DNA from: Rhizophagus irregularis
Lineage: Eukaryota; Glomeromycota; Glomeromycetes; Glomerales; Glomeraceae
Length of the DNA stretch: 64,000 bases
Assembly (NCBI RefSeq): GCF_026210795.1
Contig: NC_089447.1
Location: 2,978,501 to 3,042,500, forward strand
Reading direction: 5' to 3'
Numbering within the stretch: the stretch's first letter is position 1; each line of letters opens with the position of its first letter. The notes below the pieces were generated by a model, which searched no databases, was not told the origin of the DNA, and saw nothing but the letters and a program-made list of their open reading frames with translations. Below, in pieces: positions 19,430-45,892 of this stretch. A program made the position numbers and the translations under genes.

Positions 19430-20832
19430 TTATTGTTCAATTATATCTTCAGTATCACTGTTAGATCTTAGAAAATTCTCCAATGCCTCCCGATCATCTG
19501 CTGTTTCTAATTCAACTTGTTCTAAACTAGTTATCAAATCTTCATCTGATAGTTTTGGTGAATATTCTATGAAATAACAAAAAAAATATGTATGTAAATA
19601 CGTAATAATAAATTTCGAAAATTATTATAAATCAACATACCATTATGTAATGCAGGATTTATCATTCGCTTTTTGTAGTTTTCCATTTGTGTTTCAAAAT
19701 CAGCTTGATATGACTGCACTTTTTGGATTTTATGATTCCTCATAAACTCCTCATAATGTTGTTGATACATACTCCTTTTTTCCGATAATTCAGCCCTAAA
19801 TAATAAAACTTAATAAAATAAGCAGTTATAGAATAAATATCCTATTATAAAACATATTTACTTACTCTTTTTCTTCGATATGTTTATCAAGTGAACGAAG
19901 TTCGGTTCGTTTCCAATCTTCGAAAATTTGTTCTTGATTATTTTTTGCATAATCATCAATCATATTCTCCAACTCTGACAATTTTCCTTTTAGTGAAACT
20001 TTTTTTAAAAAAAGAAAAAAAAATTACTAAGACTTTCTTGAATTATAAAGGAATGTCAATTAATTGTGATCTTACTTGCAGAATGGGTTATTTCATCGAT
20101 CATTACTTTTACTTTAGGCAATTGACTAGCCTCCGATTTAACTAACTCGCATGTTTGATAATGATTTTCACATTTTTTCAATATTTGCTGAATAAGCCCA
20201 TCAACTAACTAATAAATTCGAAAAGATTTAAGTATCAAGAATTAATAAAAGTAATGTTAAATGCCGACTTACAATAGCGTTACGAAAATTATTTTCATCC
20301 TCAGCTTTTATCGAATTCCAATCATTCTCATATCTAAAAGCATTTGAAAAGCAAATAAAATTAAGTACGATGGTTCATAACAAAAATCATGTCAATTTTA
20401 AAACCACCTTAATGAAAATTCAGTAGTGGCTGGTATGTCTAGACTCGGTATTGTACGTGACTTGCTATAATGTAAGACAACAATAATAAATAAAAGTCGG
20501 AGGAAAAATTCAAAAATGAAAAGAAATAAAATAAAATATAACCTTAAATACCCAATCACGGGTAACCTTGGTGACAACGAACCTAAACGCGGGTTTAATG
20601 CAGGTGTAAGAATTTCGGCCGATTTTGTACGAATGTTTTCCCATTCATTGCGAACAACCTGAAGTCTTAAAATAAATTTAATATCTAGAGTTAATTAATA
20701 AGTGTGGGCGATCAATAAATTTTCCTCTAAAAGAAAGTTGAATTTCTTAAGTAGGTAAATAATTGCTCACCCAGTCGTATCTATAAAGTCCTTAAAACTA
20801 GCTGAAGATATTTTTTTGAACTGTTCAAACAT
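19430..20832 (-). CDS. dysbindin-like BLOC-1 subunit
   Basis: Eight exons (20771-20832, 20543-20665, 20408-20464, 20273-20333, 20076-20208, 19866-19998, 19641-19795, 19430-19566), all GT-AG and in phase, give a 286-aa protein. It aligns by eye to animal dysbindin in order: SRTIPSLDIP and RYENDWNSI (human RTVPFLP, RYEDTW), a long central coiled coil (LEQ/KCENHYQTCEL to IEEKEAELSEKRS), YQADFETQMENYKKRM (human FQQDMEQYL), and the acidic tail DEDLITSLEQVELETADDREALENFL (human LEQMDLMDISDQEALDVFL). Dysbindin is a structural subunit of BLOC-1, which acts in endosome-to-lysosome sorting. The neighbour on the left is unrelated; on the right it shares a 173-base divergent promoter with RPL37. The assignment rests on motif order, not on a search. 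Confidence 0.85.
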
Positions 20833-42688: not shown

Positions 42689-44166
42689 TTATGTAAATTC
42701 TTTTAATTGTTCCTCCCAATTTTCAGGAACTTCTTCGTCACCATCTTCCGTAACAACTATACCATCTGATGTATCAAAATCCTTAATCCAAGCATCTATT
42801 TTTTTTTATAAAAAATATTATCAAGATGATATCAAATTGAGTTCTAATTATAAATTATGAACATACCTGAATCTTCTCCCTTGTTTGCATCAAATAAGAC
42901 TTCTTTATTTGATAAATTCTCTTGTTGCTTATGCTTTTTTTTTGTTTCCAGCAAAATATTACAATTCAATGAGTTTACTTTAAATTTGATATAATAACAA
43001 TTTATTGTAATATAATTACCTCTTCTTTTTTCTCCTCTTGTTTTTCTGTAGTTTCCATGGATGTTGATTCTTCAATAGGATCTTTCTGAAATACTTCATT
43101 TTCTAAGACTACAGAGTCAATTGAACCTAATGAAGTTTGTTTAATTAAAGACACTCTGTAGAAATAATTCCTCCAAAACATTGGTTCCTGTACACTTAAA
43201 TTTTTTAAAAAATTATTAGTAATAATCTTCTATCAATTAATTAATTTACACAATTCAAATACTTACTGAGCTGGAACCAATTCAAAACGCATACGATTGA
43301 GATTAGGATCAGCATTCAAAGCAGCTGAAGCAGTTTGAAAATAAACATTCATATCGAATTGAAAATTTGTGTTTTCTGGTGGGGAAATTGTGAAATTTCG
43401 TTTATTCTAAAAGATGTGGTAAAATAATATATCACATAGTTTATTAAATATTGTTCTTAAGGATTAAATATGAGTATTGACAATCCCTTACTTGGGATAA
43501 AGCTAATATCTGTTGTTTAAGGCCTTCTTCATCCGGAAGTCCTACCCAAGGAGCGACGGCTTCTAAAATCGGGAATTTGAAGTATGTTAATTTAATTCTG
43601 AAATTGAATTAAAATAAATAAAACTAAAAAACTAAACAATACCTGTTCCAACATTAGGTTTGTGTGATTCTTCATTAACTTGTTTAACAAATTCTTCATG
43701 CTCGTTCTGTAGATTTCTTGTAGTTTCTTCCACTTTTTGTTGAATTGTTTTTGTTAAAGACGCGACACTAGTAAAAGCAGTTGTCGCAAATGCTGAAAAA
43801 CCAATAATTGAAAGTAGTCAGGAGATTTAAACCTCTCTAACGGATAATTCAAAAATCAATTCACTTACAAGAAAACATTGCAGTATTTACAGTTTTTGGA
43901 ACCTGCATATTTTTCACGGATTCTGGCACATTGTTCATAACGGTTGTCGGAACATTCTTTACAGCGTTAGTTAGATCTAATTTTTTCATTGCTTCCGGAA
44001 GCTCAATGTTTTTAACTGCAGCTGGAAGTTCAAATTTCTTTACGGAAATAGGAAGCTCCATATTTTTAACAGCAGATAGATCTATATTTTTTACTGCCGA
44101 GGGAAGTTCGATATCTTTAACTGCTTGAGGTATTTCAAAATTCTTGACTACTTTTGGCACTTCCAT
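42689..44166 (-). CDS. BSD-domain protein, SYAP1-like, with N-terminal 9-residue repeats
   Basis: Seven exons (43869-44166, 43643-43792, 43492-43562, 43267-43406, 43020-43194, 42867-42933, 42689-42795) give a 335-aa protein. Residues 1-97 are about ten copies of a nine-residue unit of the form V-K-N-[IFM]-E-L-P-x-A. Residues 100-150 are helical (TKTIQQKVEETTRNLQNEHEEFVKQ). The BSD domain spans about residues 155-240: PWVGLPDEEGLKQQILALSQ, then FDMNVYFQTASAAL, then the signature EPMFWRNYFYRVSLI. An acidic/Lys-rich tail ends DAWIKDFD, then NWEEQLKEF. BSD domains in SYAP1-type proteins sit on Golgi/endosome membranes and link to Akt/TORC2 signalling in animals; the role here is not known. It shares a 411-base divergent promoter with the syntaxin-6 gene. 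The exon 5 acceptor (aaatttaag|T) was chosen to keep phase. The start is the first ATG. Confidence 0.87.
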
Positions 44167-44577
44167 ATTTTAACGTATTGGTTAAAACGTTATTGGACTT
44201 TAATTGATCATAACTAAGGAATTAGATTTTCACACATTTAAACATCGAAAATCTAAATAGTACATCAATTTTGAAGACATATAGACATATATTTGGCCCG
44301 TGACACGTCTAGGCCAATTTGTTTGTTTAACATATAATACCAGTTTTGGTGAAATTATGGCGTTTACCCGCGTCTGGCCGGCATTAAGAAATCAACCATG
44401 TTTTTGAATGTTGAGAAAATAATATCACGGTGTCATGTGGTGGTAGAAAAACCGATCATCATGTGTGAAATCTGGCCAATAAAGAAATTCAACCATCAAT
44501 ATCTGGTTTATATTTTCTCTCATTCTTTAAGCCCTTCACAATAATTTCTTCCTTTGTACCTAAATGTGATATTCAAA
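44167..44577. promoter_or_regulatory. divergent promoter, SYAP1-like / syntaxin 6
   Basis: 411 bases between two outward-facing ATGs. It is less AT-rich than the surroundings and contains CCCGTGACACGTCTAGG near 44297 and ACCCGCGTCTGGCCGG near 44367. TCTGGCC occurs twice (44375, 44470), possibly a shared element. No factor can be named. Confidence 0.45.
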
Positions 44578-45892
44578 ATGCCGGATGGTGACCCATTTTT
44601 TACAGTTAAAGAGTATATATAATAATCTATTTTAAATCTTAATTGTATATTAGCAACCGTTGAAATTCAATTCCTTTTTTTTTATTTTAGAGATATAGAA
44701 AATAATGTTGCAACAGCATTGACGTTATTTAATAGTTGGAATCGTATCTACAATACAGTTTCATCTAGGAATAATGAAGAACTAAAGAGAACAGAAGAAG
44801 AATTAAGGACAACTTTACAAGAAATAATAACTGATCTAGACGATGTAGAAGAAACAATAAATATCCTTTTCTTGAATAGAAAAAAAATTTTATAATTCTT
44901 CTTAATTATCGAATTCATTATCCTTAACAAATTGAAATGTATATTGAATTAAATACAAGTTGTTGAAAGTAATCCTGATAAATTTGGTTTAACAAAGACT
45001 GAAATAGAATCACGTCGTGAATTCGTTGAACAAACAAGACAACGATTACAGGTAAGTAAATCATTATTTTTTTCTTTTAAGAAATTATTATTAAAATTAT
45101 ATTCACATTTAATTTAGGAAATTCGATTAACATTGGATGACCCTCCGAAACGATTAAATTCTACGGGAAATCATCAAGTATGCTCTGCGAAAAAATAAAT
45201 TTTATTATCTATTTTCTTTTGCTAAATTTATCTTTACAACATATTCCTTATTTAGGAATTAATTGACGGATATAAGTCAACAAAAGTTTTTGAACAAGTT
45301 AGATCAAAATCAAGATATGAAGAAGTTATAGAAATGGATAATACTAGATTCATAGAAAATGAAGCTCAACAGCAAACTGTTAAGATTAATTATTAAAATT
45401 ATTCGATTTTTTTTTTGGAAGGAAATATAATTGAATAAATTATTTTATTTTAATAGATTTTGATGAGAGAACAAGATGAGCAATTAGAATCATTGTATGG
45501 AACCGCTAAGAATATTCACGAAATTGCTACTACAGTGGGAACTGAATTAGAGGATCAAAATATGTATGACAAGTTTATTTGTAGGATAGTAGATTATGTT
45601 GAAATTGCTTAAACTTATTTATCTTTAGGTTGTTGAGTGAATTTGGAGAACAAGTAGATAGAGCTCAAGGAAGATTAGAAAGAGCCATGAAGAAAGTAGC
45701 TTATGTTATTAAACAAAATGAAGGTAAATTCTGACTGATATATTGTTTAATTAAATATTGTTTAATATTTATTAACATTTCATTAATTATAATATTATTA
45801 TATTACTTTCTTTAGAATCAAAATCGAATTGTTGTATTGGAGTTTTAATTGTTGTATTAATTATTTTGCTAATATTAGTTGTAGCTGTTTAA
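44578..45892 (+). CDS. syntaxin 6 / Tlg1-type Qc-SNARE
   Basis: Eight exons (44578-44612, 44691-44860, 44957-45051, 45118-45177, 45256-45378, 45457-45563, 45629-45723, 45816-45892) give a 253-aa protein; human syntaxin 6 has 255. It starts MPDGDPFFTVKEDIE (human DPFFVVKGEV). The N-terminal three-helix domain contains ITDLDDVEETIKVVESNPDKFGLTKTEIESRREFVEQTR. The Qc SNARE motif runs from about residue 160 (ILMREQDEQLESLYGTAKNI to RLERAMKKVAYVI), with the central Gln in EFGEQVDRA. A C-terminal anchor follows (NCCIGVLIVVLIILLILVVAV). It acts in fusion at the trans-Golgi network and endosomes. Seven introns are needed; six are GT-AG. The second (44861-44956) fits only as an AT-AC U12-type intron, which restores exactly the syntaxin-6 spacing (ETIKVVESNP versus human ETISIVEANP). 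Confidence 0.93.
44861..44956 (+). other. probable U12-type AT-AC intron
   Basis: The 96-base intron starts ATATCCTTTTC, an exact match to the minor-spliceosome 5' splice site (ATATCCTTT). It contains ATTATCCTTAACAAAT, a near-perfect U12 branch site (TTCCTTAAC) with the branch A about 19 bases before the 3' end, and ends TAAATAC. No GT donor that keeps the syntaxin-6 frame is present nearby. Splicing at AT-AC gives a 253-aa protein aligned without gaps to syntaxin 6 at the join. Confidence 0.82.

Follow-up and report, generated by a model that had tools for sequence, protein, structure and literature searches.

A probable AT-AC minor intron in the syntaxin-6 gene of Rhizophagus irregularis

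Introduction

Does the 96-nt interval that splits the syntaxin-6 gene of Rhizophagus irregularis, starting with AT and ending with AC, belong to the minor (U12-type) class of introns, and where exactly does it end? The interval lies at 44861-44956 (+ strand) of the window, the term used here for the whole 64,000-nt stretch of DNA that was analysed (C19:2978501-3042500), and all positions given without a contig are those of the window. An initial annotation had read the interval as an AT-AC minor intron and had concluded that the genome must keep the minor-spliceosome RNAs. Here we examine the gene model, the splicing motifs, alternative borders and the genome-wide occurrence of both the motifs and the machinery, and compare the intron with those known from the same species and from the same gene family in animals.

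Results

The syntaxin-6 gene

Judged by its predicted product, the region 44578-45892 (+ strand) is a syntaxin-6/TLG1-type SNARE gene of R. irregularis with eight exons and seven introns. The spliced translation runs from ATG to stop over 253 residues, with all eight exons open, and the protein obtained by AT-AC splicing matches, both above the Pfam cut-off, PF09177 (STX6_10_61_N, Syntaxin 6/10/61 N-terminal domain; 104.8 bits, profile positions 1-99 of 99) and the SNARE domain PF05739 (31.2 bits); a C-terminal hydrophobic anchor is visible by eye in the translation. The four PDB sequence matches to the spliced protein are syntaxin 6 (PDB codes: 1lvf, 4j2c and 2nps) and syntaxin 10 (PDB code: 4dnd).

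In the gene model, all of it on the + strand, exon 1 (44578-44612; MPDGDPFFTVK..., aligned to syntaxin 6) is followed by intron 1 (44613-44690), a GT-AG intron of phase 2 that is of the ordinary U2-type by motif, its best branch match being 5/8. Exon 2 (44691-44860) ends in ...EETI plus the first base of the next codon, intron 2 (44861-44956) is accordingly of phase 1, and exon 3 (44957-45051) resumes with (K)VVESNPDKFGL.... Exons 4 (45118-45177) and 5 (45256-45378) are followed by exon 6 (45457-45563), where the similarity to the syntaxin 6 SNARE chain 2nps_D begins, by exon 7 (45629-45723), which carries the SNARE domain according to Pfam, and by exon 8 (45816-45892), which encodes the C-terminal hydrophobic stretch and the stop. 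The six introns other than intron 2 are all GT-AG in this model; they match the branch motif at six of eight positions at most, and none has the U12 5′ splice site and the full branch motif together. Adjoining the gene, on the other strand (43861-44169, - strand), an open frame encodes imperfectly repeated units of the AVKNxELPxAVKN type.

Motifs of intron 2

Intron 2 starts with ATATCCTTTT (44861-44870), a match to the U12-type 5′ splice site consensus RTATCCTT. Its branch region, ATTATCCTTAAC (44917-44928), contains the core motif TCCTTAAC at 44921-44928, which matches at all eight positions, and the interval ends with the dinucleotide AC (44955-44956), 28 nt past the branch motif. The coordinates, the start, the branch motif and the AC end thus agree with the initial annotation, which had placed the branch motif 19 bases from the end; this distance had to be corrected to 28 nt. 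The corrected distance is inside the range of -40 to -5 that was scanned for U12 introns in PMC2846911. It stands at the long end of what is seen in this genome, where the branch-to-end distances of the 30 motif matches described below span 8-28 nt (counted to the first AC or AG from 8 nt onwards) and one other match reaches 28 nt.

ATATCCTT followed after 30-60 nt by TCCTTAAC occurs once in the window, compared with 0.02 occurrences expected, and 2 of 100 shuffled sequences contained at least one. Under a first-order Markov model of the gene, the probability of the starting 8-mer at its fixed place is 2e-5 and that of the branch 8-mer within 45 nt is 2.9e-4. A looser scan of both strands of the window returned three other weak pairs (two on the + strand, at 19837 and 44111, and a third on the - strand), and in none of them is a perfect 5′ motif combined with a perfect branch motif.

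Motif pairs across the genome

The genome searched comprises 146,748,485 bases in 32 contigs. RTATCCTT followed after 40-70 nt by TCCTTAAC was found at 30 places, compared with 7 for the reversed pattern. These 30 places are motif matches and candidate introns, judged by the motif and by the correlation with the end. When the end was scored, for all 30 loci on both strands, as the first AC or AG at least 8 nt past the branch motif, AC came first in 17 of the 18 A-starting matches, while 9 of the 12 G-starting ones had AG (Fisher p = 1.3e-4 for all 30, an approximate value, because the near-copy loci L006/L030 and L022/L024 were counted as independent). The AC and AG ends are outside the search pattern, therefore their correlation with the start is an independent sign that the minor-intron class is real in this genome. 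Two of the near-copies, L006 and L030, are almost identical to each other and resemble a repeat rather than introns, and were retained in the 30; the other two, L022 and L024, make up two of the three G-starting exceptions, and in both an AG is found two bases past the AC.

The enrichment of motif pairs at the 40-70 nt spacing does not extend to 71-101 nt. At the latter spacing 44 matches were found, of which 32 were recognized by eye as one dispersed repeat, leaving 12, compared with 9 in a reversed control in which repeats are still included. The dispersed repeat (for example C1:698073-698179) begins with GTATCCTTTAAAATATTT or a close variant and contains TCCTTAAC, and would inflate naive counts of minor-intron motifs.

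A separate observation concerns C31:2081500-2091400, where three minor-intron motif pairs fall within 7 kb, starting at positions 1112, 5807 and 7772 of that segment. The sequence between the second and the third pair has its best match to DNA-PKcs (54.4 bits; the next, SMG1, 31.1 bits). The two GT-AG junctions (1112 and 7772) give an open frame when joined with 120 nt on each side, and the AT-AC junction (5807) gives no open join at 120 nt, perhaps on account of short exons. The segment may hold one DNA-PKcs-like gene with three putative minor introns.

The 3′ end and alternative borders

Splicing to the AC yields the junction EETIKVVESNP, which aligns to ETISIVEANP of syntaxin 6 (PDB code: 1lvf) with no gap (73.7 bits); the gap-free ETIKVVESNP junction of the initial annotation was thereby reproduced. 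Among the splice readings compared this one gives the best protein.

The most serious competitor is another U12-type reading, of the AT-AG subtype, in which the intron would end at the AG at 44958-44959, or in which both ends, three bases apart, would be used. This AG is in frame and opens no stop, and minor introns of an AT-AN class have been described (PMC8280824). The resulting junction, EETIIVESNP, is one residue shorter and needs a one-residue gap, and its scores are lower both to 1lvf (68.5 vs 73.7 bits, a loss of 5.2) and to the Pfam profile (100.7 vs 104.8 bits, a loss of 4.1). The AG is even more distant from the branch motif (31 nt), and it departs from the genome-wide preference for AC after an A-start. 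We consider use of the AG, alone or alongside the AC, unlikely, and the AC strongly favoured as the 3′ end. That 44861-44956 is a U12-type intron, whichever of the two 3′ ends is taken, is nearly certain, and that it is specifically an AT-AC intron ending at the AC is highly probable.

It is very improbable that the U12-like motifs are present by chance and that the gene has here a U2-type intron of the ordinary kind, bordered elsewhere by GT-AG or GC-AG. Eleven in-frame GT/GC-AG pairs that introduce no extra stop can be drawn (donors 44700-44959, acceptors up to 45050), and none of the 11 keeps the conserved N-terminal domain whole. Compared with AT-AC splicing, each costs the protein 19 or more further residues, all of them in that domain, the mildest removing the stretch from VEETI to LTK, and the chance expectation for the motif pair in the window, given above, speaks against coincidence. 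Hardly more credible is a decayed gene copy in which the interval stays unspliced: retention of intron 2 would indeed bring in the two stops that the interval contains, but PF09177 matches a single gene in the genome, in two pieces that flank intron 2, and none of the eight exons is interrupted between ATG and stop; together they encode the N-terminal domain, the SNARE domain and the hydrophobic tail.

The minor-spliceosome machinery

The genome contains genes for all four minor-spliceosome RNAs, each above its Rfam gathering score, as the initial annotation had predicted: U12 on contig C19 (68.9 bits), U6atac on C17 (79.9 bits), U4atac on C13 (55.0 bits, with a cut-off of 53) and U11, which has two matches, on C20 (71.9 bits) and C30 (55.5 bits). 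The window itself contains no Rfam match. The first 75 nt of U4atac and of U6atac are predicted to pair extensively with each other (-43.1 kcal/mol). The two U11 copies (C30:407421-407547 and C20:3660035-3660175) have near-identical 5′ halves; the 3′ stem of the C30 copy fits poorly, and this copy may be a pseudogene or a variant.

As for specific proteins, the search for the U11/U12-48K protein that the initial annotation had suggested as a check was successful, one being present as a homologue at C28:665046-665120 and in neighbouring exons (joined query, 51.6 bits against chain 8r7n_F of the 48K protein). ZMAT5, RNPC3 (65K), SNRNP35 and SNRNP25 have been reported in R. irregularis by reciprocal search (PMC10639083); U11/U12-48K is absent from these four orthologues as named in the methods passage of that paper. 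CENATAC (CCDC84), which is reported to favour AT-AN introns (PMC8280824), gave no match in the genome when searched as PF14968, and the control genomes likewise gave none. Taken as a sequence-based reading, the interpretation of 44861-44956 as a minor intron is supported.

Pairing of the intron with the snRNAs

The branch region ATTATCCTTAAC is complementary to the segment GUAAGGAUAAU of the genome's own U12, with one A bulged. ATTATCCTTAAC equals the reverse complement of GTAAGGATAAT of this U12 except for an extra A, the arrangement expected of a bulged branch adenosine. As a positional test, duplex energies discriminate poorly. In a scan of the gene with U12 the branch site ranks first, with -10.9 compared with -10.5 at 45226 (a margin of 0.4 kcal/mol), and with U6atac the best site, by 0.2, is at 44865 and overlaps the 5′ splice site, whereas the four best sites for the 5′ end of U11 are all near 45137, in an exon.

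We propose that ATATCCTTTT is most likely recognized by U11 and then by U6atac, and that U12 would pair with ATTATCCTTAAC in such a way that a single A bulges out and serves as the branch nucleotide. U4atac would then leave U6atac, and position 44860 would be joined to 44957 at the AC, giving an uninterrupted syntaxin-6 N-terminal domain. The order of snRNA action in this scheme is that of the textbook minor-spliceosome mechanism. From the motifs, the frame and the protein fit, all of which are present at this locus, we infer that transcripts use the junction 44860/44957.

Discussion

On the evidence of its sequence, 44861-44956 is a real AT-AC minor intron, and one that is ordinary for R. irregularis. 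The intron class, its presence in R. irregularis and its presence in the STX6 family are each already known separately. R. irregularis has been reported to have 205 minor introns (0.272% of 75,377) and four minor snRNAs (Larue and Roy 2023, PMC10639083), and an AT-AC U12 intron is listed for human STX6 and Drosophila Syx6 (CG7736) in Table 2 of PMC2831892; the surprise that the initial annotation attached to a U12 intron in a fungus was consequently overstated. The accepted picture remains unchanged, because the minor introns of R. irregularis have already been published. Intron 2 itself may be already listed in introns.info or in the supplements of PMC10639083. The words syntaxin, STX6 and SNARE are absent from the main text of that paper, the word syntaxin is absent from the main text of PMC2846911, and the text of PMC7367187 has none of STX, syntaxin, Rhizophagus and fungi; among the literature matches listed, a scope outside which introns.info and supplements fall, no text names the syntaxin-6 intron of R. 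irregularis.

We lean towards the view that intron 2 is the ancestral AT-AC intron of animal STX6, its codon position and rare subtype unchanged since before the split of fungi and animals, fish having switched to GT-AG, and its retention may tune the amount of this Golgi/endosome SNARE. The switch to GT-AG in fish STX6 is described in PMC2831892. Table 2 of that paper gives the intron as number 1 of 2, with the species of the count unstated in its header and with no codon, and none of the texts examined states at which codon the U12 intron lies in animal STX6. If the position matches that in animals, the locus would add one more ancestral minor intron with a conserved subtype. For work on minor splicing in fungi, a clean AT-AC intron in a chromosome-scale assembly that also contains the minor snRNAs is well suited as a reference and as a target for RT-PCR.

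Of the known systems compared with intron 2, the minor introns of R. irregularis, as described in the text of PMC10639083, come from the same species. Their phase bias is 1 > 2 > 0 and genes of vesicle-mediated transport are over-represented among their hosts, and a phase 1 intron in a SNARE gene fits both; no difference was seen. Two further fungi with described U12 introns, Phycomyces blakesleeanus and Rhizopus oryzae, have both AT-AC and GT-AG U12 introns and U12 spliceosomal RNAs (PMC2846911), although their U12 introns are far fewer, about 20 and 4, respectively (cited in PMC10639083). With human STX6 and Drosophila Syx6, the latter also counted among the fly U12 genes in PMC2952598, intron 2 shares the gene family, the U12 class and the AT-AC subtype (PMC2831892), the difference being that here the gene is fungal.
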